Program-made: the position numbers and the translations under genes | Shown: positions 36,220 through 54,375 of the stretch, piece by piece | Layout: every line of letters begins with the position of its first letter | Numbering within the stretch: position 1 is the first letter of the stretch | Origin: Enterovibrio calviensis DSM 14347 | GTDB taxonomy: Bacteria; Pseudomonadota; Gammaproteobacteria; Enterobacterales; Vibrionaceae | Assembly (NCBI RefSeq): GCF_000621165.1 | Contig: NZ_JHZA01000009.1 | Coordinates: 1-64,000, forward strand | Direction of reading: 5' to 3' | DNA: 64,000 nucleotides | The notes under the pieces: generated by a model | The model's input: only the letters and a program-made list of their open reading frames with translations | Database searches by the model: none | What the model was told of the DNA's origin: nothing

Positions 36220-37449
36220 CTAAGGCGCACAAATACTGGCCAACGCATTCAAACGTCGAACAGGTTCTTTCACGTACGGGTTATCTTGATCCCACGCATA
36301 CCCTGCAAGAATCGAGCAAATCATCTGCTTAACCTTGGTATCAGGCCTCGGGTAGAAAATTACGTCTTGAAGTGTTCCCGTATACCAGCCTTCCACATAA
36401 CAACGGAACGTATCAATTCCCTTTAAGAGAGGCTGTTCATAGTCAGCGGCCCAATCAACGTCTTCGCCGGCCAATTGGCGAGCTAACACTTCCGTGGCCA
36501 ATTCCGCGGACTTCATAGCAATGGTCACGCCAGAAGAAAACACCGGATCAAGAAACTCTCCTGCGTTACCTAGTAAGGCAAATTTGTTGGTAGCCAGTGT
36601 TGATACATTGGCCGAATATCCACCAATTTGACCTGATGGATTCGGGTACTCAGCGTTCGCAAGTAACACCGCCAATCGTGGCTCCTCCGCAGCAAGCTGA
36701 CGAATGGCCTCGATGTGATTGTCTGGGTAGCGCTCAAAAAACGCAGGTTCGCCAACAATTCCAAAGGAACATGTACCATTACTAAATGGGATCAGCCAGT
36801 ACCACACATCGTGATGCTCAGGATGAACTGAGATGAGAATTTTATCTCTGTCATATTGAGAGTCTTCAATATTATCAACGATATGGGTAAAAATCGCCTG
36901 ACGAGGAGGTAAGCATGAAGGGGTTTCAAGTTCTAATAGACGCGGTAGCACGCGTCCAAAGCCACTGGCATCAAGAATAAAATCCGCGGCCAATGTATAA
37001 GCATCGCCATTTTGATTTTTCACAATCAGCCGAGGTTTATCGCCATCCAACTCAACCGATTCAATCTCATGTTGATAGCGAATGGTGACGCCTTGACGCT
37101 CGGCGTCATCGGCAAGCACTTTATCAAACTGACCGCGCTGAACTTGGAAGGTCGTACCTATCCCGATGGAAAATTTGTCTGTGAAGTCAAAATTGACATA
37201 GCGTCCGCGATGGCTAAACGCCGCACCATTTTTAAACTGAAAGCCGGCTTGATTAACGGCATCAAGCATTCCCGCGGCTCGTATCGATTCCATGCAAGCA
37301 GGTAACAGACTTTCACCGATAGAGAAGCGTGGAAACGTGGCTTTCTCAAGCACTAGCACGTCAATGCCTTTTTGATTTAACAAAGCGGCGGCAATTGCCC
37401 CTGATGGCCCAGCACCAATAATTGCAACCTGAGTCGTTTCCATCTTCAA
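36220..37449 (-). CDS. Tryptophan-halogenase-like FAD-dependent oxidoreductase
   Basis: A flavoprotein of about 409 residues. The N-terminus VAIIGAGPSGAIAAALLNQKG is a Rossmann FAD-binding motif. PRFSIGESLLP, the later VWYWLIP (compare the WxWxIP motif of flavin-dependent halogenases) and LLGNAGEFLDPVFSSGV place it in the halogenase/geranylgeranyl-reductase-like superfamily. Such proteins occur in aryl polyene, flexirubin and xanthomonadin clusters. Hydroxylation, halogenation or reduction of the polyene head group are all possible. The best start is TTG 37449 with GGAG about 7 nt upstream, although ATG 37443 is also in frame. It is the last gene of the leftward three-gene unit. Confidence 0.8.
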   Translation of the reverse strand: MKMETTQVAIIGAGPSGAIAAALLNQKGIDVLVLEKATFPRFSIGESLLPACMESIRAAGMLDAVNQAGFQFKNGAAFSHRGRYVNFDFTDKFSIGIGTTFQVQRGQFDKVLADDAERQGVTIRYQHEIESVELDGDKPRLIVKNQNGDAYTLAADFILDASGFGRVLPRLLELETPSCLPPRQAIFTHIVDNIEDSQYDRDKILISVHPEHHDVWYWLIPFSNGTCSFGIVGEPAFFERYPDNHIEAIRQLAAEEPRLAVLLANAEYPNPSGQIGGYSANVSTLATNKFALLGNAGEFLDPVFSSGVTIAMKSAELATEVLARQLAGEDVDWAADYEQPLLKGIDTFRCYVEGWYTGTLQDVIFYPRPDTKVKQMICSILAGYAWDQDNPYVKEPVRRLNALASICAP

Positions 37450-37487
37450 ACAGTATCTCCTTTCAATATTCACAGAGCGTGGCGGTA

Positions 37488-38585
37488 TTATGAATCTTGG
37501 CGAGCGCTTAGTGTCAACAAGGTATGCCCAAGACCGATATTATCCGTTTGCTCGACCACCTCAAAACCTGCTTCCTCAACAATTTGAAGGAATTCATTAC
37601 AGCGGTAAAAACGACTGTTGCCGTTTGCCAAGCACGTAAAATATAGCGAAGTCGCATTCAAACTGTACGACGCGGCTTCATATTTTTGCGCATCCCAAAA
37701 CAGTTCAAGAATATACACTACCGCATCCGGTGCCATGGCTTGTCTGACTCGACGAAGAATACTCAGAATTTCCATCGGCGAAAAACAATCAAGGAATTGG
37801 CTCATCCACCACACATCCGCCCCTTGTGGCAGCGCCAGTGAGGTGTTCAGTGCATCAAAAGGATGACCATGAATACGGTCTTCAAACCCTTGCTGCTTGG
37901 CGTTTTCTAGCGCCATGTTAATTTGCTTCGGCAAATCAATGATGGTGACGTCGACGTTCTCGTCATAGTGACAGCACTGCATCGCCCATTTGCCGGTATT
38001 GCCACCAATATCGAAAATTTTCTTCGGCGAACGTGCGAACACTTTTTTAAGCAGCAGCGGGAAAGAACGATCAGAGTAGAAGTGATCAAACTGGAACCAA
38101 CTCTCCTTGGCCTTTTCAGGCAACTCAGACAAGCCTTCGTAAATCGTGCTCCACTCACCCAGCTCTTTCAATCCAGCAGGCTTACCTTCTTTGATGGCAT
38201 CCGTAAGGTGAGCCATTGCGGCATAACAAACGTCTGCCGTGAAATCCATATTGGCGCGCGTCATGCCATCATGCAGCACAAAATGGCCAATATTCGCGAG
38301 TCGATAATGTGGTTCGTGCCAAGTCACCAACTTTGCACATAACGCCATGTCGAGCAGCACTTTAACGCCGTACTCAGACACCCCCGTGAGCTCAGAGAGA
38401 CGCACTGCATCTAAGCCTTCAGTACCTGCATCATCCAGTGTTTTCAAAATACCAAGGTCACGTAACGTTCTGGCGGTATGAAAAACAATTGGCGCAAAAG
38501 CAAGCTTTTGCGCCTCGGTCTTAGCATCAAATGCGCTAATGGTATCCACATCAAAGGTGTTCAAATTAAACCTACTACTTAACAT
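37488..38585 (-). CDS. SAM-dependent methyltransferase of the aryl polyene cluster
   Basis: The 365 residues resemble the O-methyltransferase family 2. An N-terminal winged-helix dimerisation region (LGILKTLDDAG...LSELTGVSEYGVKVLLDMAL, about 45-90) is followed by a SAM-binding domain with KIFDIGGNTGKWAMQ near residue 190. The C-terminal LELFWDAQKYEA region is typical. In aryl polyene clusters a methyltransferase modifies the aromatic head group. Ring C-methylation, as in known Vf- and Ec-type products, is an inference. It starts 3 bp after the upstream lipoprotein gene. Confidence 0.82.
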   Translation of the reverse strand: MLSSRFNLNTFDVDTISAFDAKTEAQKLAFAPIVFHTARTLRDLGILKTLDDAGTEGLDAVRLSELTGVSEYGVKVLLDMALCAKLVTWHEPHYRLANIGHFVLHDGMTRANMDFTADVCYAAMAHLTDAIKEGKPAGLKELGEWSTIYEGLSELPEKAKESWFQFDHFYSDRSFPLLLKKVFARSPKKIFDIGGNTGKWAMQCCHYDENVDVTIIDLPKQINMALENAKQQGFEDRIHGHPFDALNTSLALPQGADVWWMSQFLDCFSPMEILSILRRVRQAMAPDAVVYILELFWDAQKYEAASYSLNATSLYFTCLANGNSRFYRCNEFLQIVEEAGFEVVEQTDNIGLGHTLLTLSARQDS

Positions 38586-38588
38586 CAG

Positions 38589-38984
38589 TTACTTTTGAGA
38601 TGCAGACAGCATTGAAAGCTTTTTACGAATGTCTACATCTAGGTTGTTGATCCAGCGATTGTAATTACGGTGAATCTTGCCATCGCTGTATTTTAAGTTG
38701 TCAGAGTCGACATAGTGAATGGAATACACCTTGTCGCTGTAATTCACGTCAATGACCGCGCTGTGAGAGCGTACAAATAATTCGCCGCGGATAACGCCAG
38801 GCTCAATCTCCGTCATCACCCATCCACGGTTTGACCCAGACTCAATAATGGCTTGCTTCACCGTCGCCGTTGGCAGGTTATACGCGATAGGGGCGTTTTC
38901 AACATTTCTGATCGGTTGCACTCGACCACAACCAACTAACAAGACAGATAAAGTAAGTAAAACCAGATATTTTTTAATTTTCAC
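38589..38984 (-). CDS. Small lipoprotein of the aryl polyene cluster
   Basis: A 131-residue protein with a signal peptide (MKIKKYLVLLTLSVLLVGCG) and lipobox LVGC, so it is lipidated at Cys19. The mature part has a fold of two repeats ending in basic helices (IHRNYNRWINNLDVDIRKKL). I recognise no enzymatic motif. Small lipoproteins of this kind accompany aryl polyene genes. It is the first gene of the leftward unit and is divergent from the 17-gene operon. Confidence 0.75.
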   Translation of the reverse strand: MKIKKYLVLLTLSVLLVGCGRVQPIRNVENAPIAYNLPTATVKQAIIESGSNRGWVMTEIEPGVIRGELFVRSHSAVIDVNYSDKVYSIHYVDSDNLKYSDGKIHRNYNRWINNLDVDIRKKLSMLSASQK

Positions 38985-39118
38985 GACACACTCCTTGTTA
39001 TTTCACAGGTGGGTTGATTACCTATACCGAAGATTACGATATGATCATGTATTACAACATTGATCGAAGCGTAAGAATATTGATCAATGACATAATCAAC
39101 GACGTTATAGCACCTCCC
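38985..39118. promoter_or_regulatory. Divergent control region of the aryl polyene cluster with three GATC sites
   Basis: A 134-bp AT-rich region between the leftward and rightward units. TGATCA occurs at 39042-39047 and 39081-39086 (within the palindrome ATTGATCAAT, 39079-39088), and TGATCG at 39061-39066. The three GATC sites are therefore 19 and 20 bp apart, on one face of the helix. Either repeated operator half-sites or Dam-methylation control would fit. I found no strong sigma-70 boxes, only a weak TTACAA...GAATAT pair. Confidence 0.6.
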
Positions 39119-39868
39119 ATGAGTAGTATTCAATTCAATCTGCAACGACTAAATGCACTGTCACCAGGCCTTGAAAACACTGAGGCGTGGGAGAATTGGT
39201 GTCGGCAAAACCACGCTTGGCCAGAGGACGCGCCTGCACCTAGAGCAGACGCCATTCCCGCCATGATGAAGCGTAGAATGAGTCCAATCAGCAAGTTAGC
39301 GGTGCAAGTTGCCACAGAGCTTTCTCGCGATGAGCACATCGATTTTGTTGTGTTTTCAAGCCGTCATGGCGAACTGCAACGCACGGTGGCGCTGTTAAAA
39401 GACATCCAGTTGGGTGAGCCAGCTTCTCCGACAGCGTTCTCGCAATCGGTTCACAATACGGCTGCCGGCTTGTTTACCATCGCCACCAAAACTCCGGTGC
39501 CTGCAACGTCATTAGCAGCAGGAGAAGATACGTTTCACTGTGCCTTGACGGAAGCGGCGATTTATCTCAGCGAGCATCCCGATCATCGTGTACTGGTGAT
39601 CGACTTTGATGCCCCTTTACCCGCACCGTATGATGAGTTTGAACAGCAAACGTTTCAGCCTTATGCATTGGGTTTGTTACTTACGAAAGGTGACGACATT
39701 CGCATTGAGCGACACCCAATGAGTGATGTTAACGGCGGCGGGATTCAAGAAAATGCCTTGCCACAAGGGCTTGCTTTCTACTCGCAGTGGCTAAATAGCG
39801 AAGCCCGTTTTTATATTGACAGTGCACGCCAATCTTGGCGCTGGAACATCGAGCGGGTAGAAAAATGA
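39119..39868 (+). CDS. apeC: Beta-ketoacyl synthase chain-length-factor subunit
   Basis: A 249-residue protein of the ketoacyl-synthase-like chain-length-factor family. FSSRHGELQRTVALLKDIQ and the SFxxSVHNTAAGLF-like FSQSVHNTAAGLF blocks are typical. It has no catalytic Cys in the usual TACSSS context, so it cannot condense alone. In studied aryl polyene systems such a subunit pairs with a full ketosynthase (ApeO). The ATG at 39119 is chosen because the mature family N-terminus begins here, although the Shine-Dalgarno match is poor. It is the first gene of the rightward operon and overlaps the next gene by ATGA. Confidence 0.85.
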   Translation: MSSIQFNLQRLNALSPGLENTEAWENWCRQNHAWPEDAPAPRADAIPAMMKRRMSPISKLAVQVATELSRDEHIDFVVFSSRHGELQRTVALLKDIQLGEPASPTAFSQSVHNTAAGLFTIATKTPVPATSLAAGEDTFHCALTEAAIYLSEHPDHRVLVIDFDAPLPAPYDEFEQQTFQPYALGLLLTKGDDIRIERHPMSDVNGGGIQENALPQGLAFYSQWLNSEARFYIDSARQSWRWNIERVEK

Positions 39869-40656
39869 TCATAGTCGTCAGCAAAGGATGGCGGGTTTTT
39901 GCTACCGGTTTTTGCTTCAGCCTGTTTGGGCTTGGCGCATTGTTGCTGACATTCCTCGTTTTTCCGGTGATGACCTTTACCGCAAAAGATCATCAAGACA
40001 GGGAAAGGCGAGTTCAACGGATCATCCAAAAAACCTTCTTGTTGTTTTGTTTGATCATGAAATACACCGGTGCGATCAATTTTCGTATTACGGGTGCAGA
40101 AAAGCTGAAGGAAGACAGAAACTGCCTGATCCTCGCCAACCACCCGAGCTTGATCGATTACGTACTCATCGCATCGCAATTACCGCAGTGTGATTGCTTG
40201 GTGAAATCGGCCATATGGCATAACCCCTTCATGAAGGGCATCGTCAAAGCCGCAGGTTATATCCCCAATAACAGCCCTGACGATCTTTTCTCACGTTGCA
40301 GTGAACGCCTCGGTAACGGCAACGTGTTGCTCATTTTCCCTGAAGGGACGCGCACCACGCCCAATGAGCGGGCAGAGTTGCAACGTGGCGCTTCACAAAT
40401 TGCCGTAAGAACACAAACAGATATCCGCATCATTCATATCACCGTCACCCCCAGTTTTCTCACAAAAGAAAAGAAATGGTATCAAGTTCCAGACACGAGA
40501 CCCTTTTTTCATGTGGAGGTGAAAGGTAAGATAGTCGCGAGTGAATTCACAGATTGTGATGTAACGGAAGCGACACTTGCTCGTCGGCTAAATAAAACGC
40601 TGGCATCGGCACTATTTCCAAACACTGACAATTCCAAACATCAACACTCAACATAA
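39865..40656 (+). CDS. PlsC-like lysophospholipid acyltransferase
   Basis: The 263 residues start MIIVVSKGWRV, with a hydrophobic membrane segment at about 10-35. The acyltransferase motifs are LANHPSLIDY (HX4D catalytic pair) near residue 88 and FPEGTRTT near 163. Family members transfer acyl chains to glycerophospholipids. In this cluster the likely role is to attach the polyene acyl chain to a lipid anchor. The start overlaps the previous stop by 4 bp, and an in-frame ATG 30 bp earlier would lie inside the neighbour. Confidence 0.85.
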   Translation: MIIVVSKGWRVFATGFCFSLFGLGALLLTFLVFPVMTFTAKDHQDRERRVQRIIQKTFLLFCLIMKYTGAINFRITGAEKLKEDRNCLILANHPSLIDYVLIASQLPQCDCLVKSAIWHNPFMKGIVKAAGYIPNNSPDDLFSRCSERLGNGNVLLIFPEGTRTTPNERAELQRGASQIAVRTQTDIRIIHITVTPSFLTKEKKWYQVPDTRPFFHVEVKGKIVASEFTDCDVTEATLARRLNKTLASALFPNTDNSKHQHST

Positions 40657-40663
40657 GAAGGCT

Positions 40664-40924
40664 ATGGTGAATACACTACATAACGAGCTAAAAACGTTGA
40701 TCATCGAGGCATTGAACCTTGAAGATCTAACTATTGACGATATTGAAACCGATGCTCCTCTCTTCGGAGAAGGACTTGGGCTTGATTCTATTGATGCCCT
40801 AGAGCTTGGGCTAGCCATTAAAAAAGCGTACAACGTGGTACTGGATGCTGATGACAGCAACACCCGCGAGCATTTTGCTTCTGTCGCTAACTTGGCTACG
40901 TTCATCTCTGCCAACAAAGCGTAA
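40664..40924 (+). CDS. apeE: Acyl carrier protein (first)
   Basis: An 86-residue acidic ACP. The phosphopantetheine-attachment Ser is in GLGLDSIDALELG near residue 41. The four-helix pattern is intact and there are no extra domains. With the second ACP it carries the growing aryl polyene chain as a thioester. It lies 7 bp after the acyltransferase and 8 bp before the second ACP. Activation needs a phosphopantetheinyl transferase, and acpS at 56313 is the nearest one. Confidence 0.92.
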   Translation: MVNTLHNELKTLIIEALNLEDLTIDDIETDAPLFGEGLGLDSIDALELGLAIKKAYNVVLDADDSNTREHFASVANLATFISANKA

Positions 40925-40932
40925 GTAAATAA

Positions 40933-41193
40933 ATGACAGAAGTAAGCAAAACCCAAGTATTTGAACAGGTACGTGATGCTCTTGTTGAGCTGTTTGAGCT
41001 TGACCCAGCGGACATCACGCTAGAAACCCACCTGTACCAAGAACTTGATTTAGACAGTATTGATGCGGTTGATTTGGTTGTTCATCTGCAAAACCTCACA
41101 GGTAAAAAAATCAAACCTGAAGAGTTTAAATCAGTACGCACAGTACAAGATGTTGTTGATTCCGTAGTTAATCTGCTTTCTGAAGCCCAATGA
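40933..41193 (+). CDS. apeF: Acyl carrier protein (second)
   Basis: The second 86-residue ACP, with the attachment Ser in ELDLDSIDAVDLV near residue 39 and FELDPADITLETHLYQ in front of it. It differs clearly from the first ACP, so the two probably have separate partners. In the characterised systems one of them interacts with the starter ligase. Its stop overlaps the next gene's start (ATGA). Confidence 0.92.
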   Translation: MTEVSKTQVFEQVRDALVELFELDPADITLETHLYQELDLDSIDAVDLVVHLQNLTGKKIKPEEFKSVRTVQDVVDSVVNLLSEAQ

Positions 41194-41744
41194 GGCTACT
41201 TACCGTTTTAGCGGGCTTGCTGTTACTTGCCTATCCGCTAGCGGTATACACAGGACTATCAAACTTCGGGATGGCTCCCCTCGCACTTGTGCTCGTCATC
41301 CTTTTTGGGTTTCGCATCGCTTCTGGTCATTTAGCCAATCGTGGACCATTGAAACACCTCGCAGTCGTCACTGGCGCAATCGGTATTGTGCTCGTGTCTC
41401 TTGGGTATCTGTTTCGACAACACGATTGGCTATTGTTTTACCCGGTTGCCGTCAATAGCGTCATGCTGACAGCGTTTGCCTATAGTCTGACTCAATCTCA
41501 ATCCATGATTGAACGACTCGCACGGTTGCAAGATCCCGACCTCCCACCTTCCGGTGTGCGTTATACCCGTAACGTCACCAAAATTTGGTGTGTGTTTTTT
41601 CTGGTGAATGGCAGCATTGCGTTAGCAACCTGTTTTATGCCCCTGACATCTTGGACACTCTACAACGGCTTATTAAGCTATGTTGCGGCAGGCGTTTTGT
41701 TCGGCATTGAGTTTGTGGTCAGAAAAAGGGTTCAGGCATCCTAA
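41190..41744 (+). CDS. Integral membrane protein of the aryl polyene cluster (COG4648-like)
   Basis: A 184-residue, strongly hydrophobic protein with about five predicted transmembrane segments (clear ones near 2-20, 25-45, 55-72 and 80-98, and two near the end). It has no catalytic motif I can name. Proteins of this kind sit between the ACPs and the AMP-ligase in aryl polyene clusters. A role in anchoring the synthesis complex at the inner membrane is inferred only from context. It is coupled to both neighbours by 4-bp and 1-bp overlaps. Confidence 0.75.
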   Translation: MRLLTVLAGLLLLAYPLAVYTGLSNFGMAPLALVLVILFGFRIASGHLANRGPLKHLAVVTGAIGIVLVSLGYLFRQHDWLLFYPVAVNSVMLTAFAYSLTQSQSMIERLARLQDPDLPPSGVRYTRNVTKIWCVFFLVNGSIALATCFMPLTSWTLYNGLLSYVAAGVLFGIEFVVRKRVQAS

Positions 41745-43120
41745 TGTCTCTCATTCCTCTCGCACATTTGCTGGCGTGTGAACGTCCGCATGATCAACCT
41801 GTTGCGTTCAGTGATAATCACACGACAACATGGGCACAGTTTCAACATGACGTGTCATCACTTTCTGCGTATTTCGACGCCAAAGAAGAACAACGTTGGG
41901 CCTTGGCATTCGGTGACAGTTATCTGTTTGCGACCGCCTTTCTCGCGCTATGTCACGCACGGAAAAACATTGTGTTGCCCGGAAACCTCCAGCCCGGTGC
42001 GCTCAATGAACTGCGTCCGCATTTCGATGCCATTGTGCATGATGAACGTATTAAACTGCTCGCAAACACCCCTGCTATTTCTCTTCCAAACGCAGAGATA
42101 AACGCGCAAGCGAAAACGACATGCCCAACTCCGTTCGATAACGTCACGCTGACCTTGTTTACGTCAGGTTCAAGTTCGACGCCGAAGGCCATCGTGAAAC
42201 AGCTCAGTCAACTCCAAGCAGAACTCAACCAACTTGAGTTTCAATGGGGAGGCACACTGTCGAACACACGCGTTCAAAGCACGGTGTCCCACCAGCACAT
42301 TTACGGCTTGTTGTTCCGCGTTCTTTGGCCGTTAAGTGCAGGCCGCGCCTTCTCATGCAGTGATTTGGTTTACCCTGAACAAGTCACCGCCGCCGCGCAA
42401 TCCGATGCCGTGTTAATCAGCAGCCCGGCGCTGCTAAAACGCTTGGAAGGCCAATGCAAACACGGCGAGTACCGTGCGGTATTTTCGTCCGGCGGTCCGC
42501 TTCCTTTTGATGCGGCAACGCACAGTGAGCAGTTACTCGGTCAACGCCCTGTCGAGGTCTATGGCAGCACAGAAACCGGCGGTATTGGCTTTAGACAACA
42601 AACCCTTTCGACTCAGCCGTGGCACTTGTTTGATGACATTCGCGCCGAACTGGATGAGCACGGCTGTCTGCGCTTGCTGTCTCCCTACATTGATGCCAAT
42701 GCGTGGTACCAAACTGCTGATCTTTGCGACCTCATCAACCACACGCAGTTCGTGCTAAAAGGCCGCGCAGATCGCGTCATAAAATTGGAAGAAAAGCGCG
42801 TTTCATTATCTGAGATAGAACAACGACTTTGCGAAAATGCGTGGATTTCAGATGCCGCTTCTTTGGTTTTGTCACTTGATGAACGTCAAGTTGTCGCCGC
42901 AGTCGTGGTATTATCTCCCGAAGGACAACAGAAGGTTGCCGACGTTGGGAAAGGAAAATTCCAGCTAGCACTGAGACAACAACTTCGGGATTGGTTAGAG
43001 CCGATTGCGATTCCGCGCCAACTCCGATTTGTTGATGCAATACCGCAAAACAGTCAGGGAAAACGACAGCAACAGGTGATTGAATCTTTATTTTCACCCG
43101 CATCGTCGACGAACGAGTAA
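41744..43120 (+). CDS. apeH: AMP-dependent acyl ligase that loads the aromatic starter
   Basis: An ANL-superfamily adenylating enzyme of 458 residues, shorter than typical CoA ligases. It has the P-loop TLFTSGSSSTPK near 140, VYGSTETGGIGFR near 268, YQTADLCDL near 325, GRADRVIKLEEKRVSLSEIE near 340 and the catalytic C-terminal Lys in NSQGKRQQQ. The studied ApeH enzymes activate aromatic acids such as 4-hydroxybenzoate and pass them to an ACP. With a lyase in this operon, a (hydroxy)cinnamate is also a plausible substrate. Confidence 0.88.
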   Translation: MSLIPLAHLLACERPHDQPVAFSDNHTTTWAQFQHDVSSLSAYFDAKEEQRWALAFGDSYLFATAFLALCHARKNIVLPGNLQPGALNELRPHFDAIVHDERIKLLANTPAISLPNAEINAQAKTTCPTPFDNVTLTLFTSGSSSTPKAIVKQLSQLQAELNQLEFQWGGTLSNTRVQSTVSHQHIYGLLFRVLWPLSAGRAFSCSDLVYPEQVTAAAQSDAVLISSPALLKRLEGQCKHGEYRAVFSSGGPLPFDAATHSEQLLGQRPVEVYGSTETGGIGFRQQTLSTQPWHLFDDIRAELDEHGCLRLLSPYIDANAWYQTADLCDLINHTQFVLKGRADRVIKLEEKRVSLSEIEQRLCENAWISDAASLVLSLDERQVVAAVVVLSPEGQQKVADVGKGKFQLALRQQLRDWLEPIAIPRQLRFVDAIPQNSQGKRQQQVIESLFSPASSTNE

Positions 43121-43130
43121 CAGGTAAATC

Positions 43131-43481
43131 ATGCAAAGAAAACCCACTTTACTCAATACAACATTGGGTGAGAACAGCGCCACATTAACCTTGAAAGTGG
43201 ACGCAAGCCTTGAAGACTTCAAAGGCCACTTTCCTGTGTTCGCACTTCTCCCTGGCGTGACTCAAATTGATCTGGCGATGCGCTACGCGCGCGATACCCT
43301 TGGCGTGAATGGCACTTTTGGCGGCATGGAAGTGATCAAATTCCAAGATCCAATTTTGCCCGATGCCATCGTCGACCTGACACTCACGTGGCATCCAGAC
43401 AAAGAAAAGCTGCACTTCAGTTATCAATCCGGAAGCACTGCGCACTCATCAGGCCGAGTGATCCTTCGTCAGGCACAATGA
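43131..43481 (+). CDS. apeI: Hot-dog 3-hydroxyacyl-ACP dehydratase
   Basis: A 116-residue FabA/FabZ-like protein. The active-site helix reads FKGHFPVFALLPGVTQIDLA, keeping the catalytic His with Asp 14 residues later, the FabA-type His/Asp pair. In studied systems ApeI works as a heterodimer with ApeP, and here ApeP lacks the His. This subunit therefore probably supplies the whole active site. It lies 10 bp after the ligase gene. Confidence 0.88.
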   Translation: MQRKPTLLNTTLGENSATLTLKVDASLEDFKGHFPVFALLPGVTQIDLAMRYARDTLGVNGTFGGMEVIKFQDPILPDAIVDLTLTWHPDKEKLHFSYQSGSTAHSSGRVILRQAQ

Positions 43482-43495
43482 GTGATTAACGTCGT

Positions 43496-46718: not shown

Positions 46719-46719
46719 T

Positions 46720-47148
46720 ATGCCAGAAGCCACTTTACAGGCTGAGGTTACTCTTAGGACGGCGTTTCAGGATGCCGATCCTATGGGTGTGATCTACCAC
46801 GGAAACTACTTCCGCTTTTTCGAAGAAGCCCGTCGCGCCATGATGGAACAGCTCGATTATAGCTACATGGCGATGAAAGAGTCTGGCTACATGTGGCCAA
46901 TCATTGATGCGGCAGTACGTTACGTAAAGCCCATCAAGTTTGACCAATCCATCATCGTGACTGCCAAACTCACCGAGTGGGAAAACCGCCTTCGCACCGA
47001 TTACGTGATTTACGATGCAGCCACACGCAAACGCCTCACCAAAGGCCACACCATTCAAGTGGCAGTAAGCATCGACACGGAAGAGATGTGCTTTGTCTCT
47101 CCGACTGTCTTTACCCAAAAACTCGAGGCGTACCTGAGTGCTCAATAA
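46720..47148 (+). CDS. Hot-dog acyl-ACP/CoA thioesterase
   Basis: 142 residues from the ATG giving MPEATLQAEV. The hot-dog thioesterase segment FQDADPMGVIYHGNYFRFFE contains the catalytic Asp of the 4-hydroxybenzoyl-CoA/YbgC family, preceded by a beta strand. In this cluster it would free the polyene or edit ACP-bound intermediates. It starts one base after the lyase stop, and its end overlaps the LolA-like gene by 11 bp. Confidence 0.87.
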   Translation: MPEATLQAEVTLRTAFQDADPMGVIYHGNYFRFFEEARRAMMEQLDYSYMAMKESGYMWPIIDAAVRYVKPIKFDQSIIVTAKLTEWENRLRTDYVIYDAATRKRLTKGHTIQVAVSIDTEEMCFVSPTVFTQKLEAYLSAQ

Positions 47149-47755
47149 ATGCCGCTGTTTGCTTTCCGCGTTATTGCTGTTTGTGTGCGCCTTTCCGGTG
47201 CACGCATTAACCCTGTCTGATTTGCAAACCCGCCTTTCAGCACATGACATCACGCGCGGTAACTTTACCCAAACGCGTCATCTCGCCATGTTAGACATGC
47301 CGTTGGTATCCCAAGGTGCGTTCCTATTAAGCCAAGCGGATGGCCTATTGTGGCAACAAATAACACCCTTCCCATTGTCCTTGGTGTTAACGGGGCAAAC
47401 CCTCACTCAGCGTATTCCGGGACAAGCAGACAACATCGTCAATGCCGATGACAATCCGATGGTGTTCTATTTCAGCCGTTTGTTTTTGTCTTTGTTCCAA
47501 GGTGATACTGACGCACTGGCCGCACAGTTTGATTTGCAGCTAACCGGCACCACAGAAAGGTGGGCATTGGTATTAACCCCAAAACAAACGCCACTGTCTC
47601 AGGTATTTAAAGAAATCACGCTTCAAGGTGCAGATCATATCGATATGTTGACCTTGCACGAAGTCAGAGGCGATCATTCCGAGATTCACTTTACCCGCGT
47701 GACCTTCACCCCCTCGAGCCTAACAGAAGAAGAACAACGTGAATTTGGTGACTAA
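47138..47755 (+). CDS. LolA-like outer-membrane lipoprotein carrier protein
   Basis: 205 residues with a signal peptide (MLNKCRCLLSALLLFVCAFPVHA, cleavage near residue 23) and a LolA-type half-barrel: RGNFTQTRHLAMLDMPLVSQ and GLLWQQITPFPLSLVLT. LolA carries lipid-modified cargo across the periplasm. Here it probably ferries the lipid-linked polyene or a cluster lipoprotein. The start is GTG, overlapping the thioesterase gene, and the 3' end overlaps the exporter by 17 bp. Confidence 0.85.
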   Translation: MLNKCRCLLSALLLFVCAFPVHALTLSDLQTRLSAHDITRGNFTQTRHLAMLDMPLVSQGAFLLSQADGLLWQQITPFPLSLVLTGQTLTQRIPGQADNIVNADDNPMVFYFSRLFLSLFQGDTDALAAQFDLQLTGTTERWALVLTPKQTPLSQVFKEITLQGADHIDMLTLHEVRGDHSEIHFTRVTFTPSSLTEEEQREFGD

Positions 47756-50045
47756 AGCAACTGGCTGGTTACTTGTTCTTGTTTTGCTCTTCGCAACCTC
47801 ACTTTGGCGCCAGCCTAGTGACTTGCCGATGTTGGACACTGATGTCCTCAACCTTCTGCCTAAAAATCAGCAAGACCCATTGGCGCAAAAGGCATTCCAA
47901 CAAGCGGCAGAGAACATTGAAGATCAAGTTGTTGTTCTTGTCGGTCATGCGTCGCCAAGTATTGCCATTGATGCCACCAAAGCACTCGCCAATCAACTAA
48001 CACAGCTTCCTTTGTTTGATAGCGTTACCGCAGAGATTTCTGACGATGAACAAGCGGCATGGGGCACTGTCTTTGCGCCTGCCAAAGCACAACTGCTGAC
48101 GACAGAGCAACGTCAAAGGCTCACTGACAACCCCGCTGCACAAACAGCGCATGTCATTCAATCCATCTACAACCCCTTTTCAGGCGTGACCGGAGCCGAG
48201 CTCTCGCACGATCCTTTCTTATTGTTCCGCGATTTCTTGTTACACCTCGGTGCGCAAAACAGCCGTTTTACGTTAAAAGACAATGTGCTCACAACCCAGT
48301 TTGAAGGCAAGACTTACACGCTGCTGCGAGCAAACCTGTCAGGCAGCGCTTACAGTGTGCCAATGCAAGAACAGCTCGCGGATTTGTATCAGGCAGAAGC
48401 GCAGCTGAAAACGCAGTACGGTGTGGATGTTCTGCATACTGGTGCGGTGTTCTACGCGGCCTTTGGCGCAGAGAGTGCTCGGTCAGAAATCAGCACCATT
48501 GGTATTGGCTCCATGGTGGGCATTTTGCTCTTGGTGTTGTTTGTTTATCGCAGTGTGTTGCCCGTCAACCTTGCGCTGCTTTCCATTGGTTCTGGGGTTA
48601 TAACCGCCTTTTCCGTCAGCTTGTTAGTCTTTGGGCAAATTCACTTGTTCAGTCTGGTCATTGGTGCCAGTTTGATCGGTGTTTCCATCGATTATTCATT
48701 CCACTTCTTAACCGAAAGAATGGCAATGAGTGACAAGTGGAACGCTAAAGAAGGTTGGCGCGCGGTCGCCGTTCCTATCACGTTTGGCCTCGCCTCAACG
48801 TTAATTGCCTACCTGAGCATGTTTGCTGCGCCTTTCCCCGGCCTTCAACAACTTGCGGTGTTCTCAGCAGCAGGCCTCATTGGTGCTTACCTCAGCGTGA
48901 TGTGCTGGTATCCCTTACTTGCGGCTAAGCCTGCGAAAAAAAGAACACTGCCATGGCAATGCGCAGCGGCGTGGTGTCTCGCACCTTGGCAAAACACTTC
49001 ATGGCAACGGGGCGCAATGTGCATTGCACTGGGTATTGGCGCGCTCGGCCTATGGTATGCCGATTACGATGACAACATTCAGCAGTTGCAGTCACTGCCA
49101 CCCTCACTGAAACAACAAGAACAACGCATTCAAGATATAGCAGGGCTTGGAAGCAGCCAGCCTATGTTGCTGGTGCGAGGCGATAGCGAACAAGCCGTGC
49201 TCACCTCGCTCAGTGCATTAACGCCCTCTCTTGATGCGCTTAAAGCCTTTGGTGACATCCGTGGTTATCAAACCCTCTCGGATTATGTGCCGCCGTTATC
49301 GGTGCAAAAAGACAACTATCAACGCGTTGAAGCACTTTACGCTACTCAAGGTGAGACGCTGGCAACGCAACTCGGATTGGCAGAGATACCGACTCTCCAA
49401 CAGGCTTTTACGCCATTCACACTGCGCGACTTTTTACAGTCGCCGAGTGGCCGTGAGTTTCAGCCGCTTTGGCTCGGGGACATTGACGATCAGTTCGCGG
49501 CACTTGTGCTGCTTCAAGACGTTTCCTCTCCCGCCAACGTGAAGGCCGCCATTGCCCATCAACCTCATGTTACTTGGCTAAACAAAGCCGAGGAAGTGTC
49601 GCGTCTGTTTGGCGATTACCGTCAACGTATCAGCGTGCTCATTGGGTTGTCGTGCATCGTCATTCTTATCGTACTTAGCCTTCGCTTTGGCGTGAAAAAC
49701 GCGTGTCGAATTCTCATCGCCCCTGTGTTAGCCGCAGGTGTTGGCTTGGCCGCAGGTGCATTGAGCAGCGTGCCAATGAATCTGTTTAACTTGCTGGCTT
49801 TGTTCCTCGTGATGGGCATCGGCATTGATTACGCCCTCTTCTTTGCCGAGCAGAAAGACAGCCTGCGGGCGTGGGTAGCAAACACCTTAGCAGCGCTTAC
49901 TACCTTGCTCGCGTTTGGCCTGCTTTCACTCAGTAACACAGAAGCGATTCATAGCTTTGGCATTACGGTGCTCGTTGGCATCAGTGCGGCTTGGTTTCTT
50001 TCCCCCATCGCGATTCGCACGAGCGATAAGGTTCATTCCCAATGA
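47739..50045 (+). CDS. RND/MMPL-family exporter
   Basis: A 768-residue inner-membrane transporter with duplicated halves. A first transmembrane helix (about 5-20) and a large periplasmic loop are followed by a five-helix bundle near 255-400. A second periplasmic loop then precedes five helices near 635-760. The GVSIDYSFHF and GIGIDYALFFAE motifs in equivalent helices are the MMPL proton-relay-like segments. A transporter of this class is constant in aryl polyene clusters and is inferred to move the lipid-linked polyene to the outer envelope. The start is GTG. Confidence 0.87.
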   Translation: MNLVTKATGWLLVLVLLFATSLWRQPSDLPMLDTDVLNLLPKNQQDPLAQKAFQQAAENIEDQVVVLVGHASPSIAIDATKALANQLTQLPLFDSVTAEISDDEQAAWGTVFAPAKAQLLTTEQRQRLTDNPAAQTAHVIQSIYNPFSGVTGAELSHDPFLLFRDFLLHLGAQNSRFTLKDNVLTTQFEGKTYTLLRANLSGSAYSVPMQEQLADLYQAEAQLKTQYGVDVLHTGAVFYAAFGAESARSEISTIGIGSMVGILLLVLFVYRSVLPVNLALLSIGSGVITAFSVSLLVFGQIHLFSLVIGASLIGVSIDYSFHFLTERMAMSDKWNAKEGWRAVAVPITFGLASTLIAYLSMFAAPFPGLQQLAVFSAAGLIGAYLSVMCWYPLLAAKPAKKRTLPWQCAAAWCLAPWQNTSWQRGAMCIALGIGALGLWYADYDDNIQQLQSLPPSLKQQEQRIQDIAGLGSSQPMLLVRGDSEQAVLTSLSALTPSLDALKAFGDIRGYQTLSDYVPPLSVQKDNYQRVEALYATQGETLATQLGLAEIPTLQQAFTPFTLRDFLQSPSGREFQPLWLGDIDDQFAALVLLQDVSSPANVKAAIAHQPHVTWLNKAEEVSRLFGDYRQRISVLIGLSCIVILIVLSLRFGVKNACRILIAPVLAAGVGLAAGALSSVPMNLFNLLALFLVMGIGIDYALFFAEQKDSLRAWVANTLAALTTLLAFGLLSLSNTEAIHSFGITVLVGISAAWFLSPIAIRTSDKVHSQ

Positions 50046-50644
50046 TCAAACGATTTACGCTTCTCATCGCCCTGTCCATAAGCCTTATGGGCTGCTCCTC
50101 GCTTTTAGGTTCCCCGGAACCTAAAAGCCGTGTTGCGTTGGCAAAAGGTGTGTCTGTCACCCTGCCTACACCAGCAGAATTCGGTGGCAGAGTGAGTGTA
50201 AGTCAGCTCATTAACGCGGATTGGGAAGGTGAAGCGCATACGCTTCCTGTGCATTTAGAAATCACCCCTGAACGCGTGGTGTTAGTCGGGTTCTCAGCAT
50301 GGGGAACACGTTTGATTACGGCCACGTATGAGAATGGTCGACTCGAAGAAGATGCGCTTGCAGGCCTTGGCATTGTGCTGCCAGACAGCCGACAAATATT
50401 GATGAACTTGATGATTGCACTCTGGCCTGTCGAAGCGTGGGCACCGCATCTCAAGCCCATCAATTGGACGCTAATTGAACAAGATGAGCATCGCATCTTG
50501 CGTGATGAGAGCGGCGAAACCGTGATTGAAATACAGTATGATGAGCCCTTCAAGTTGGGGACGGTGCCAGCCTTCATCCAATACGAACACAAGCAACAAC
50601 ATTATCGCATTACGATTAAAACCCTGAGCCCGAACGGACGCTAA
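50042..50644 (+). CDS. DUF3261 lipoprotein
   Basis: A 200-residue lipoprotein with signal peptide MIKRFTLLIALSISLMGC (lipobox LMGC, lipidated at Cys18). The mature part matches the DUF3261 proteins seen only in aryl polyene-type clusters as far as I know. Its placement directly after the exporter suggests an outer-membrane acceptor or an exporter partner. No catalytic motif is visible. It overlaps the exporter gene by 4 bp. Confidence 0.82.
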   Translation: MIKRFTLLIALSISLMGCSSLLGSPEPKSRVALAKGVSVTLPTPAEFGGRVSVSQLINADWEGEAHTLPVHLEITPERVVLVGFSAWGTRLITATYENGRLEEDALAGLGIVLPDSRQILMNLMIALWPVEAWAPHLKPINWTLIEQDEHRILRDESGETVIEIQYDEPFKLGTVPAFIQYEHKQQHYRITIKTLSPNGR

Positions 50645-50669
50645 ATTCAACACCAAGGCGGTAAACATC

Positions 50670-51866
50670 ATGACTCCCGTTTACATACATGCCTGCGGTG
50701 CGCATTCCGCACTTGGCAGCACTCTCGATGAGATTCATTCCAGCTTAAAAAGTGGCATTAGCCCAGGCATGTCCGGCGAGCGCTTTCGGTTAAACGATGA
50801 CACCATGGTGACCGTCGGCCGCGCAGTCGGAGAGCTTCCCTCATTGGAAAGCGCGCCTTCACATCACCAGACACGCAACAACCAACTGGCACTCTCTGCG
50901 TTGTTGCCATTGTCTGATGCCGTTAACGACGCCAAGTCACAGTTCAGCCCAGATCGTATCGCAGTGGTGTTAGGTTCAAGTACCTCAGGCATTTCAGAGG
51001 GCGAGCGCGCGTTAAAACATCACATTGATCAGGGGGAATTCCCAAAAACTTACCATTACCACCAGCAAGAACTCGGTAACCTATCAGACTTCGTCAGTGA
51101 CTATTTTGGTCTAACGGGGTTGCGCTATACGGTATCAACCGCGTGCTCTTCCAGTGGCCGTGTTTTTCTGACTGCCAAGCGTTTATTAAAAGCAGGGCTT
51201 GCCGATGCAGTGATAGTGGGCGGCGCTGATAGCTTGTGTGCATTAACAGTCAACGGCTTCCACGGACTTGACTCTGTGTCGCCCGAACTTTGTAACCCGT
51301 TTGGTGAAAATCGAAACGGCATTAACATCGGCGAAGCAGCGGCATTTATGCTTCTCTCGCTTGAGAAGCCTTCCGCGCTAGCGCCTGATCAACCTGCTAT
51401 TGCTTTGCTTGGTGCGGGTGACAGTTCAGATGCACACCATATTTCTGCGCCTCACCCCGAAGGCGATGGCGCTGAACGCGCGATGCGAAAAGCACTGGAT
51501 GATGCGCGTCTCACCGCGAGCGACATTGGCTATGTGAATGCGCACGGTACGTCTACGCCATTGAACGATGCGATGGAATCCAAGGCGATTTTACGCACAT
51601 TGGGTGAACAAGTCCCTGTCAGTTCAACAAAGCCGCTGACGGGACATACATTAGGCGCAGCCAGTGCCATTGAAGCCAGTATTTGCTGGCACGTATTGAA
51701 GCACGCACTACCGTTGCCCGTCTCACTGCATCAACAAGCGCATGCAAAGGATGTTGCGCCGATTCGATTGGCTCAACTCGGCGATGCCTTGGAAAAACCG
51801 ACCATTTTGAGCAACTCCTTTGCGTTTGGCGGTAACAATATCAGCCTGATTTTTGGACACGTATGA
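50670..51866 (+). CDS. apeO: Beta-ketoacyl-ACP synthase
   Basis: A 398-residue condensing enzyme. Catalytic Cys is in VSTACSSSGRVFL near residue 159, and the two His are in NAHGTSTPLND near 290 and LTGHTLGAASAIEA near 330. GGNNISLIFG closes the fold. In the studied systems this ketosynthase pairs with the chain-length-factor-like subunit (39119-39868) to extend the polyene. A 25-bp gap before the gene is the longest in the operon. Its 3' end overlaps the dehydratase gene by 4 bp. Confidence 0.92.
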   Translation: MTPVYIHACGAHSALGSTLDEIHSSLKSGISPGMSGERFRLNDDTMVTVGRAVGELPSLESAPSHHQTRNNQLALSALLPLSDAVNDAKSQFSPDRIAVVLGSSTSGISEGERALKHHIDQGEFPKTYHYHQQELGNLSDFVSDYFGLTGLRYTVSTACSSSGRVFLTAKRLLKAGLADAVIVGGADSLCALTVNGFHGLDSVSPELCNPFGENRNGINIGEAAAFMLLSLEKPSALAPDQPAIALLGAGDSSDAHHISAPHPEGDGAERAMRKALDDARLTASDIGYVNAHGTSTPLNDAMESKAILRTLGEQVPVSSTKPLTGHTLGAASAIEASICWHVLKHALPLPVSLHQQAHAKDVAPIRLAQLGDALEKPTILSNSFAFGGNNISLIFGHV

Positions 51867-52327
51867 AAACAGTACCTCATGTGAATGATTTGCTTCCTCA
51901 TGAAGCACCGATGATCTTGATCGACGACATGATCGATGTGGGTGAAAAACACATTCACTGCCGCGTTACCTCAAAAGAGAGCAACCTCTTTTTTGACCAA
52001 GAGATAAAGGCAATTCCAGGTTGGGTCGGCATTGAGTTAATGGCCCAAACCATTGCAGCGTGGTCCGGGTATCACGCATGGCATGAAGGTGGCGAACCGC
52101 CTGTCGGCTTCTTACTCGGCAGTCGTCGCTACAACACTGAAACCAGCGTATTTCCTGCAGGGCAAGTGTTAGACATTCGTGCCGATCATATGATGGAAAG
52201 CAATGGCATGGCCGTTTTTGCTTGCCGAATTGAACATGACGGCGTTGAACTTGCCACCGCGCAGCTCAACGCATTTGTACCGCCAAAAGAAAAACTCGAA
52301 CAGATGATGAACAGGGATACCCAATGA
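51863..52327 (+). CDS. apeP: Hot-dog dehydratase partner subunit
   Basis: A 154-residue hot-dog protein of the 3-hydroxyacyl-ACP dehydratase family with LPHEAPMILIDDMIDV near the N-terminus. The central-helix region reads KAIPGWVGIELMAQTIAAWSG. The acidic residue (Glu) is present, but the catalytic His position, 14 residues earlier, is Phe. Alone it would be inactive, consistent with a structural heterodimer partner of ApeI. It overlaps both neighbours by 4 bp. Confidence 0.88.
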   Translation: MKTVPHVNDLLPHEAPMILIDDMIDVGEKHIHCRVTSKESNLFFDQEIKAIPGWVGIELMAQTIAAWSGYHAWHEGGEPPVGFLLGSRRYNTETSVFPAGQVLDIRADHMMESNGMAVFACRIEHDGVELATAQLNAFVPPKEKLEQMMNRDTQ

Positions 52328-53049
52328 ACAGAGATGTGCTTGTAACGGGTGCCAGCAAAGGCATCGGTAAAGCGATTGCGCTGCAACTCGCGAAAGATGG
52401 GTTTTCTGTGGTGGTGCACTATGGCCGAGATAAAGCTGGCGCAGAAGAAACACTTGCCGCCATTCAGGCTGAAAATGGACAAGGTCGCCTCATCAGTTTT
52501 GATATCAGCGACCGTGAACAATGCCGCGAAACCTTAGAGACGGATATTGCTGAACACGGCGGCTATTACGGCGTCGTGAACAACGCGGGCGTTACCGCCG
52601 ATACCGCATTCCCCGCCATGACGGCAGAAGAGTGGGATGGCGTGGTTCATACCAATTTAGACAGTTTCTACAATGTGCTGCACCCTTGCATCATGCCAAT
52701 GCTTCAACGCCGCAGAGGGGGACGCATTGTCACCATGGCGTCTGTTTCAGGTATGATGGGCAACCGCGGTCAAACCAACTATAGCGCAGCGAAAGCAGGC
52801 ATTATCGGCGCAACGAAAGCACTGGCCTTAGAACTGGCTAAACGAAAAGTCACGGTTAACTGCGTCGCTCCCGGTTTGATCGATACAGGCATGATTGACG
52901 AGCATGTTAAAGAACACGCGTTGCCACAGGTTCCTTTGCGCCGCATGGGCGAACCTGAAGAAGTCGCGGGTCTTGTCAGCTACCTGATGTCAGACATCGC
53001 AGGGTATGTCACTCGACAAGTTATTTCAGTCAATGGAGGCCTCATATGA
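52324..53049 (+). CDS. apeQ: 3-ketoacyl-ACP reductase (FabG-like)
   Basis: A short-chain dehydrogenase of 241 residues that reduces the 3-keto group in each extension cycle. The NADP-binding motif is VTGASKGIGKAIALQL near residue 6, with NNAG near 88. Catalytic Ser lies in SVSGMMGNRGQ, and the Tyr-Lys pair in YSAAKAG near 152-156. The C-terminal GYVTRQVISVNGGLI is typical of FabG. It is translationally coupled to its neighbours by 4-bp overlaps. Confidence 0.93.
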   Translation: MNRDVLVTGASKGIGKAIALQLAKDGFSVVVHYGRDKAGAEETLAAIQAENGQGRLISFDISDREQCRETLETDIAEHGGYYGVVNNAGVTADTAFPAMTAEEWDGVVHTNLDSFYNVLHPCIMPMLQRRRGGRIVTMASVSGMMGNRGQTNYSAAKAGIIGATKALALELAKRKVTVNCVAPGLIDTGMIDEHVKEHALPQVPLRRMGEPEEVAGLVSYLMSDIAGYVTRQVISVNGGLI

Positions 53050-54278
53050 ATCGCAGAGTTGTTGTCACTGGTATGTCCGGTGTCACTGCGTTTGGTAACA
53101 ACTGGCAAGACGTTAGCGCGAAGCTTGATGAGCTTAAAAATGCGGTACGTTACATGCCAGATTACGAACAGTATGACGGACTAAACACCAAACTCGCCGC
53201 GCCGATCGACGAGTTCGCAGTCCCTTCTCATTACAGCCGCAAACAACTTCGCGGCATGGGCAGGGTCTCTAAACTTTCCACCGTGGCGACAGAAAACGCC
53301 TTGCTGCAAAGTGGGTTGATTGGCAGCAACACGCTTACCGATGGTCGTACCGGCATCGCCTACGGCTCGTCTACAGGCAGTACGCCAGCTATCGGTGCCT
53401 TTGGTGTGATGCTGAATGACAAAACCACCAAAGCCATTACCGCGACCACCTATGTGCAAATGATGCCACACACCACGGCGGTTAACGTCGGCTTGTTCTT
53501 TGGCTTAAAAGGCCGCGTTATTCCAACCAGCAGCGCCTGTACGTCAGGCAGCCAAGCCATCGGCTATGCGTTTGAAGCCATTAAACACGGCTATCAAACG
53601 GCCATGGTTGCTGGTGGTGCAGAAGAGCTTTGCCCAACAGAATCTGCTGTGTTCGATACCTTATTCGCGACAAGCTTGAGAAACGATACCCCTGAAACGT
53701 CACCGCGCCCGTACGACAAAGACCGTGATGGCCTTGTGATCGGCGAAGGTGCAGGTACCTTGGTACTGGAAGAATACGAGCATGCGGTTGCCCGTGGCGC
53801 AACGATTTTGGCCGAATTGGTGGGCTTTGCCAGCAACTGCGATGCTGCCCACGTGACACAGCCTAAAATGGAAACCATGCAAATTTGCATGGAAATGGCA
53901 CTGCAAAATGCAGGCTTAACGCCCTCTCAAATTGGCTATGTGTCTGCGCACGGCACGGCAACTGAAAAAGGCGATATCGCAGAATCTCAAGCGACCTCAA
54001 ACGTGTTTGGCAACCAAATGCCAATCAGTTCGATGAAAAGCTACTTTGGCCATACGCTCGGCGCATGTGGCGCGATTGAAGCATGGCTTGCTATCGAGAT
54101 GATGAATGAAGGCCGTTTTAGCCCGACGCTGAATCTGGAAAACATCGACCCAGCCTGTGGCGATCTTGATTACATCCGAGGTGAGAGCCGTTATATTGAT
54201 TGCGACTACATCATGAGCAATAACTTTGCGTTTGGTGGTGTGAACACCTCCCTCATCTTTAAGCGTTTTCAGGCGTAA
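53046..54278 (+). CDS. apeR: Beta-ketoacyl-ACP synthase, stand-alone (FabB/FabF-like)
   Basis: A 410-residue condensing enzyme with catalytic Cys in TSSACTSGSQAIGYA near residue 165. The His residues are in SAHGTATEKGD near 302 and YFGHTLGACGAIE near 337. It is a complete homodimer-type ketosynthase, and in studied systems this enzyme is proposed to start chain building, the ApeO/ApeC pair doing the later rounds. It is the last gene of the 17-gene operon, followed by a terminator. Confidence 0.92.
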   Translation: MNRRVVVTGMSGVTAFGNNWQDVSAKLDELKNAVRYMPDYEQYDGLNTKLAAPIDEFAVPSHYSRKQLRGMGRVSKLSTVATENALLQSGLIGSNTLTDGRTGIAYGSSTGSTPAIGAFGVMLNDKTTKAITATTYVQMMPHTTAVNVGLFFGLKGRVIPTSSACTSGSQAIGYAFEAIKHGYQTAMVAGGAEELCPTESAVFDTLFATSLRNDTPETSPRPYDKDRDGLVIGEGAGTLVLEEYEHAVARGATILAELVGFASNCDAAHVTQPKMETMQICMEMALQNAGLTPSQIGYVSAHGTATEKGDIAESQATSNVFGNQMPISSMKSYFGHTLGACGAIEAWLAIEMMNEGRFSPTLNLENIDPACGDLDYIRGESRYIDCDYIMSNNFAFGGVNTSLIFKRFQA

Positions 54279-54326
54279 ACGCCACACTGAACAACGGCGG
54301 CGTTCAGCGCGCTAAGCTAACAAGAT

Positions 54327-54360
54327 AAAAAAATGCCCACAGTTCGCGGGCATTTTTCTT
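54327..54360. terminator. Bidirectional terminator at the right end of the polyene operon
   Basis: AAAAATGCCC/GGGCATTTTT (54329-54338 with 54348-54357) with a 9-nt loop sits between the convergent last polyene gene and the nucleotidase gene. Confidence 0.9.
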
Positions 54361-54375
54361 TCAGGTTGAATCGGA

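Follow-up and report, generated by a model that had tools for sequence, protein, structure and literature searches.

A complete aryl polyene cluster of Enterovibrio calviensis, probably replaced as a block, and its reduced counterparts at the same chromosomal site

What does the block of genes between barA and acpS of Enterovibrio calviensis DSM 14347 encode, and how did it come to its present form? The block lies in a stretch of 64,000 nucleotides (hereafter the window; contig NZ_JHZA01000009.1, positions 1 to 64,000) and comprises 20 open reading frames spanning 36220-54278, 3 of them on the minus and 17 on the plus strand, as an initial annotation of the sequence had found. Gene content and order support its assignment as a complete aryl polyene cluster of the Vibrionaceae type, which is a known kind of system, found across the Vibrionaceae. 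Added here are a very probable replacement of the cluster as a block, whose ends are mapped, and the alternative states of one site, including a reduced variant. We met no description of this Enterovibrio cluster or of its reduced form in titles and abstract openings on aryl polyenes, which does not establish their absence from print.

Identity of the cluster

Family calls for the 20 proteins were made by Pfam and NCBIfam profile searches with the NCBIfam score cut-offs applied (Table 1). The two acyl carrier proteins, the ligase ApeH, the reductase ApeQ and the dehydratases ApeI and ApeP are all present. The ketosynthase-chain-length factor pair is present as well (ApeO 48% and ApeC 37% identical to the E. 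coli proteins), and so are the anchoring and transport genes apeD, apeG, apeJ, apeK, apeL, apeM and apeN, ApeG being recognised by position and 47% identity. The 131-aa and 184-aa proteins have no Pfam or NCBIfam family match. The profiles bear out the enzyme types that the initial annotation had listed, namely acyl carrier proteins, ketosynthases, a subunit like a chain-length factor, reductase, dehydratases, ligase, lyase, methyltransferase, the glycosyltransferase-acyltransferase fusion, a LolA-like carrier and an MMPL exporter. The leftmost gene, a halogenase-like flavin adenine dinucleotide (FAD) enzyme, was missing from its list.

The aryl polyene reading of that annotation, and the comparison with characterised clusters that it had proposed as a check, hold for both gene set and gene order. 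All 18 apeA-R genes, listed for E. coli CFT073 in Table 1 of PMC8253772 and compared here in E. coli PCN033, have homologues in the window, in kept order and with 33-70% protein identity. However, the E. coli cluster has neither the ammonia-lyase gene, which here lies between apeJ and apeK, nor the FAD gene of the left end; here apeA and apeB lie on the other strand, and acpT directly follows the E. coli cluster, whereas here acpS comes beyond 'nadN'. DNA matches to apeQ-apeR occur in 813 of 5426 E. coli genomes. In Aliivibrio fischeri emors.2.1 19 of the 20 genes are found in the same order, including lyase, methyltransferase and FAD enzyme (42-83% protein identity); only a homologue of the ApeA-type small lipoprotein was not found there at E 1e-4. 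The cluster of another strain, V. fischeri ES114, is reported to give an aryl polyene in heterologous expression (PMC8253772).

Conservation was followed by scanning species genomes with the GT2-acyltransferase ApeJ, which gave 229 coding matches; the best 80 were kept. They lie mostly in Vibrio, Photobacterium, Aliivibrio, Grimontia, Enterovibrio and Psychromonas. Genes were counted over the 72 loci of at least 21 kb, the short loci L037, L042, L073, L081, L091, L094, L095 and L096 being excluded. Fifteen genes, the query included, are present in 72/72 loci, and since 14 further genes thus always accompany the GT2-acyltransferase, their association by chance is ruled out. The methyltransferase and the DUF3261 lipoprotein are each present in 71 of these loci and the ammonia-lyase in 70, the two loci without it being from Xenorhabdus; the FAD enzyme (53/72) and the small lipoprotein (49/72) are less constant.

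The ketosynthases, the reductase and the acyl carrier proteins are also like those of fatty acid synthesis, and one might suppose that the ketosynthases were borrowed by some unrelated pathway of lipid or fatty-acid synthesis. We regard this as hardly credible: the Pfam models specific for ApeI and ApeP match, the order corresponds one-to-one to the E. coli ape genes, and the ketosynthase models NF006618 and NF006587 score over their cut-offs. The best PDB matches of ApeR are 4ewg and 7f27, of which 4ewg is an ApeR according to PMC8358021. Of the aryl-stacking residues, Tyr136 aligns with residue 135 of 7f27 and Phe203 with residue 202; going by its numbering, we equate 7f27 with the A. baumannii enzyme described in that paper.

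Relatives outside the ape type share part of this inventory. The flexirubin cluster of Chitinophaga pinensis likewise holds an ammonia-lyase in a polyene cluster and a LolA-like carrier (PMC3992019), and the methyltransferase, LolA and reductase of the window score on flexirubin models, below their cut-offs. However, none of the 20 proteins scores over the cut-off for the dialkylresorcinol genes darA/darB of flexirubin synthesis, the DarB model reaching 27 of 550 bits on ApeR. The xanthomonadin and arcuflavin clusters combine aryl polyene genes with a halogenase-type gene, as here (PMC3949708); a chorismatase (XanB2) match was not found in the 20 proteins.

Replacement of the cluster as a block

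The genomes of the genus group match Enterovibrio and Grimontia records, and the nearest of them by barA, G012, matches Enterovibrio sp. ZSDZ42. The flanks of the cluster are closer to G012 than to G005 throughout: 89.8 vs 78.1% identity at 1-25 kb, 90.7 vs 84.4% at 25-33 kb and 86.7 vs 73.5% in barA on the left, and 87.4 vs 80.1% in acpS-recO, 93.6 vs 82.9% at 58-64 kb and 88.7 vs 81.4% at 64-84 kb on the right. From apeB to apeR the order is reversed, with 91.2% identity to G005, 90.6% to G010 and 71.2% to G012, so that this tract is of the E. norvegicus/E. baiacu type. The FAD gene goes with the flank (76.6% to G012, 69.6% to G005). Counting the sites at which the window agrees with either G005 or G012, but not with both, gives the same picture: G005-type are 1413 of 6631 at 1-36100, 95 of 274 in the FAD gene, 3341 of 3739 in apeB-apeR, 85 of 303 in acpS-recO and 980 of 3827 at 58135-84000.

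A fit of two break points to 14782 such sites, with every third site tried, places the left end of the tract 54 bases into the 3' end of apeB and the right end within acpS; the FAD gene lies just outside. G012 has no 'nadN' at this place, and 'nadN' therefore contributes no sites to the fit. Trees repeat the contrast. In the tree of the core flanks (5 genes, 12 rows, careful run) the window joins G012 with support 100/99, and the grouping of the window with G005 and G010 is rejected (approximately unbiased (AU) test, p-AU 3.2e-8), whereas the tree of the cluster (17 genes, 13 rows, quick run) joins the window with G005 and G010 and rejects the window with G012 (p-AU 4.5e-4).

We suggest, with high confidence, that homologous recombination with DNA of a donor like E. 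norvegicus/E. baiacu replaced a block of about 19 kb (37.5-56.4 kb), which takes in 'nadN' and the whole cluster except the FAD gene; the direction of this transfer we infer. This places the replacement of a whole cluster between lineages and gives it mappable ends. The cluster's position between barA and acpS, as first described, is confirmed. The insertion proposed with it gives way to a shared site, at which this lineage very probably exchanged its cluster as one block.

Several points weigh against this. The cluster tree is a quick one; one of its branches is long, two of its rows have an odd composition, and warnings were given on Psychromonas and V. furnissii. Trees of single genes are weaker: that of ApeR joins the window, G005 and G010 with 93/92, and that of the lyase leaves the window, G012, G005 and G010 unresolved. 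Both AU tests were set up after the identity profile was known. The sampled relatives reach only 91% identity to the tract, which puts the exact donor outside the sample. At 25-27 kb, in contrast to the other parts of the flanks, the window is as near to G010 (94-96%) as to G012 (94-96%), be it a conserved gene or a further exchange.

One might also read the profile the other way, G012 having received a divergent cluster and the present genome having kept the ancestral one; indeed, G012 stands beside Grimontia species in the cluster tree, with 91 in the Shimodaira-Hasegawa-like approximate likelihood ratio test. This we consider improbable: between the window and G005 identity is 91% in the tract but 73-84% in the flanks, vertical inheritance in this lineage would have left the tract at the level of the flanks, and a transfer between the window and the norvegicus lineage is required either way. 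Besides the replacement in the present genome, G012's own copy of the cluster may have moved too. Contamination as the source of the mosaic was rejected, as identity of the tract to the donor type is about 91% rather than close to 100%, and the tract sits within one 291-kb contig.

States of the barA-acpS site in the genus

The site was surveyed in 18 same-genus genomes, our own included. Seven carry the full cluster between barA and acpS (G000, G005, G010, G012 and G011 by gene; G008 and G009 by DNA alignment), three a reduced cluster (G014, G003, G001) and one a decayed form of the latter (G017; L143:7893-11651), in which the ligase is cut to residues 1-244, lyase and ApeI are missing and a remnant of the thioesterase is left. 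The site is empty in G016 and G007, with 92 and 60 bp between the matches. In two genomes (G002, G015) 16 of the 20 genes lie on short contigs that do not show the flanks, and these two are hence unplaced; G004, G006 and G013 have no ApeR match at 1e-120, and the state of their site is likewise unplaced. With its full, reduced, decayed and empty versions, the site allows a comparison of gain, exchange and loss between backgrounds that are otherwise similar.

The reduced cluster consists of seven genes: an acyl carrier protein, a ligase-dehydratase fusion, the ammonia-lyase, a thioesterase, ApeP, ApeQ and ApeR. Ketosynthase-chain-length factor, anchor and exporter genes are absent from it. The fusion of ligase and ApeI has 572 aa in G014 and is read as a single frame in two of the loci only (L139 and L142). 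In G001 barA, recO and the lyase are all fragmented, which suggests assembly errors.

The reduced clusters form a clade of their own, both in the ApeR tree (G014, G003, G017; 100/99) and in the lyase tree (G014, G003; 100/99), and their origin by recent independent deletion is not supported for this reason. The fusion was discarded as a unique mark of the reduced form, since other genomes, e.g. G301 and G157, match both parts in one stop-free frame. ApeR of the reduced cluster retains its Cys and His motifs. Between G014 and G003 the proportions of nonsynonymous and synonymous differences (pN/pS) are 0.074/0.80 for ApeR, 0.13/0.68 for ApeQ, 0.092/0.78 for the lyase and 0.339/0.79 for the ligase fusion, to be compared with 0.148/0.81 for barA; pS is saturated. 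Because pN is below pS in four of its genes, these values suggest that the reduced cluster is maintained.

ApeR alone is reported to give mostly shorter polyenes, with up to four double bonds, from a 4-hydroxybenzoyl starter (PMC8358021). Since the locus also has no anchor or exporter genes, the reduced cluster should make short, unanchored aryl polyenes. More tentatively, and with somewhat less than even confidence, we propose that the barA-acpS gap of Enterovibrio/Grimontia is a cassette site that exchanges, loses or streamlines pigment pathways, and that the streamlined form is an undescribed class of aryl polyene pathway, which would lead from tyrosine to short, unanchored and perhaps diffusible acids.

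Proposed biosynthesis and the starter unit

Gene content, order and conservation are read from the genomes directly, as is the mosaic; from them we infer the following enzymatic steps, with their starter and product.

Step 1: The starter acid would be transferred to the acyl carrier protein by the ligase ApeH. The starter is probably 4-coumarate, which the ammonia-lyase of the cluster would form from tyrosine.

Step 2: ApeR and the ApeO-ApeC pair would extend the chain with malonyl units. In each round ApeQ would reduce and ApeI-ApeP dehydrate, so that a conjugated aryl polyene appears. The ring would be methylated by ApeB.

Step 3: ApeK, ApeD and ApeJ would place the chain onto a lipid, and ApeL, ApeM and ApeN would transport it to the outer membrane. 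Since homologues of apeD, apeJ, apeL, apeM and apeN are all present, a membrane-attached polyene is the expected product. It would be a yellow aryl polyene carboxylic acid.

The presence of the lyase, the chief difference from the E. coli cluster, is the reason to predict a tyrosine-derived starter. However, several observations speak against 4-coumarate. The lyase does not reach the cut-offs of the FlxA, BagA/FevW and HutH models (365.8 bits on the FlxA model NF053541, cut-off 700). Its selectivity positions are mixed, with 'FH' at the first and 'NQD', as in tyrosine and phenylalanine ammonia-lyases, at the second; we take the latter to be the position where histidine ammonia-lyases differ, and 'FH' to be the other selectivity position. 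The first selectivity motif is reported to have been misleading for FlxA (PMC3992019). In favour of 4-coumarate, this flexirubin lyase of Chitinophaga was shown to deaminate tyrosine to 4-coumarate, proposed by its authors as the primer, and FlxY was shown to activate 4-coumarate (same source).

The genome also has a gene of the UbiC family (Chor_lyase, PF04345), so that 4-hydroxybenzoate would be available as an alternative starter, the ammonia-lyase then having another role or providing a minor starter. It is the proposed starter for E. coli, and ApeH of Xenorhabdus loads it (PMC8253772). We find this rather unlikely for the present cluster. The lyase is present in 75 of the best 80 related loci, with 66-99% identity; the five loci without it, three of them short, belong to two Xenorhabdus, two other Enterobacterales and one unclassified gammaproteobacterium. 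The reduced clusters keep the lyase, which is distinct from the one other lyase of the genome (33% identical). The ligase shares just 36% identity with that of E. coli; the family model that fits it best, below the cut-off, is one for 4-coumarate ligases, run on this ligase only. A PDB search with the ligase yielded 7 weak matches. Tyrosine-derived 4-coumarate is thus retained as the probable starter.

Table 1. Features of the window and of related loci, with the basis of each assignment; identities are to the E. coli homologue.
Feature	Coordinates	Strand	Basis and remarks
FAD-dependent halogenase-like oxidoreductase, accessory gene	36220..37473	-	Pfam Trp_halogenase 3.4e-24
ApeB-type methyltransferase	37488..38585	-	FlxJ-family NCBIfam NF053543 483 bits, below cut-off 560; 54%
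ApeA-type small lipoprotein, 131 aa	38589..38984	-	41% to first gene of E. coli cluster; lipobox-like LLVGC
ApeC chain-length factor	39014..39868	+	PF13723 (N-terminal ketosynthase domain only) 4.5e-73; start may be ATG 39041
ApeD lysophospholipid-type acyltransferase	39835..40656	+	PF01553 1.5e-18; start may be ATG 39865
ApeE acyl carrier protein	40664..40924	+	PF00550; NF006617 94.5 bits, above cut-off 70
ApeF acyl carrier protein	40933..41193	+	PF00550; NF003757 133.6 bits, above cut-off 65
ApeG-type membrane protein, 184 aa	41190..41744	+	47% over residues 52-181 to same-position gene; position and identity only
ApeH acyl-ACP (acyl carrier protein) ligase	41744..43120	+	PF00501, PF13193; TIGR02372 (4-coumarate ligase) 101 bits, below cut-off 334.7
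ApeI dehydratase	43131..43481	+	PF22818 4.9e-18
ApeJ glycosyltransferase-acyltransferase fusion (GT2/lipid-A-acyltransferase)	43496..45181	+	PF00535 and PF03279
Aromatic amino acid ammonia-lyase, predicted tyrosine ammonia-lyase	45174..46718	+	PF00221 1e-166; ASG triad of the methylidene-imidazolone (MIO) type
ApeK thioesterase	46624..47148	+	PF13279 7.3e-14; start probably ATG 46720; homology begins mostly at residue 33
ApeL LolA-like carrier	47138..47755	+	PF19574, PF03548; NF053544 LolA2_flexi below cut-off
ApeM MMPL/RND exporter	47739..50045	+	PF03176 1.3e-09
ApeN DUF3261 LolB-like lipoprotein	50042..50644	+	PF11659 3.2e-31
ApeO ketosynthase	50670..51866	+	NF006618 529 bits, above cut-off 407
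ApeP dehydratase	51863..52327	+	PF22817 1e-24
ApeQ ketoreductase (FabG2)	52324..53049	+	TIGR01831 414 bits, above cut-off 338.85
ApeR ketosynthase	53046..54278	+	NF006587 758 bits, above cut-off 470; Cys165, Tyr136, Phe203 present
E. norvegicus/E. baiacu-type tract in ZSDZ42-type chromosome (very probable)	37541..56439	.	Fitted break points
Bidirectional intrinsic terminator between barA and cluster	36116..36154	.	Fold -27.4 kcal/mol on both strands, z -8.5/-9.1
Terminator hairpin 3' of cluster	54327..54359	.	Folds -13.2/-20.1 kcal/mol, z -5.0/-6.0
5'-nucleotidase ('nadN')	54376..56289	-	PF02872, PF00149; travels with replaced tract
Reduced cluster	L139:7979-14690; L142:5576-12277; L190:3003-9660		Three same-genus genomes, barA-acpS site

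The FAD enzyme at the left end

The best PDB match of the FAD enzyme is 3nix, named 'Flavoprotein/dehydrogenase' (E 3.9e-110), followed by the FADH2-dependent halogenase ChlB4 and, among others, CmlS and PltA. The protein contains GAGPSG, Lys81, WYWLIP and FLDPVFSSG (positions 20, 81, 224 and 307), and thus everything that we take to be halogenase-type, namely GxGxxG, WxWxIP, FxDPxFSSG and a catalytic Lys. All four motifs are kept in 52 of its 53 homologues when all matched pieces are considered, the exception being the fragmented L034, and in 51 when one extended frame is required.

Halogenation by the FAD enzyme is possible. Xanthomonadins are brominated or chlorinated pigments, and a true halogenase would likewise give a brominated or chlorinated pigment here. 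The conserved motifs and the halogenases next after 3nix among the PDB matches would fit this, as would the halogenase gene among the arcuflavin clusters of Azoarcus (PMC3949708). However, the name of the best match is only flavoprotein/dehydrogenase, neither the CmlS nor the geranylgeranyl reductase model reaches its cut-off, and the gene is absent from 19 of the 72 long loci; we consider a true halogenase unlikely, though with a real chance.

Cluster ends and surroundings

The boundaries are largely as first described. Folding confirms terminator hairpins at both ends; the consensus terminator scan gave only the right-hand one. No tRNA gene borders the cluster, as the four of the window lie far away, at 18-578, and no integrase-type domain occurs in the 20 cluster proteins or 'nadN', the proteins to which this search extended. 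Two other statements do not hold. 'nadN' is not a fixed part of a core block nadN-acpS-pdxJ: in G005, as here, it is the neighbour of the cluster, but in G010, G012 and G011 it is not. And where relatives were said to have ordinary core genes, two have a barA-acpS gap of 92 or 60 bp and others an aryl polyene cluster.

The 'nadN' protein is 92% identical to the copy adjoining the G005 cluster, in which one stop interrupts the present frame at codon 21, upstream of the match starts in G009 and G011. The homologues of these two genomes (89-90%) sit on other contigs.

Base composition does not mark the cluster as foreign, its guanine-cytosine content (0.47-0.52) being like that of the rest of the window. 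The promoter scan was uninformative, with 13 promoter-like sites in place of the 18.4 expected in shuffles.

The acpS gene adjoining the cluster is the only match of the ACPS family of phosphopantetheinyl transferases in the genome, the reach of this profile to enzymes of the Sfp/AcpT type not being established. A phosphopantetheinyl transferase gene thus lies near an aryl polyene cluster both in the window (acpS, 56313-56693) and in E. coli PCN033 (acpT, L189:18448-19035), at unrelated sites. Finally, the tRNA genes at the left edge of the window are two for Arg(acg) and two for Ser(gct) in alternating order, a pattern like that of a tandem duplication.

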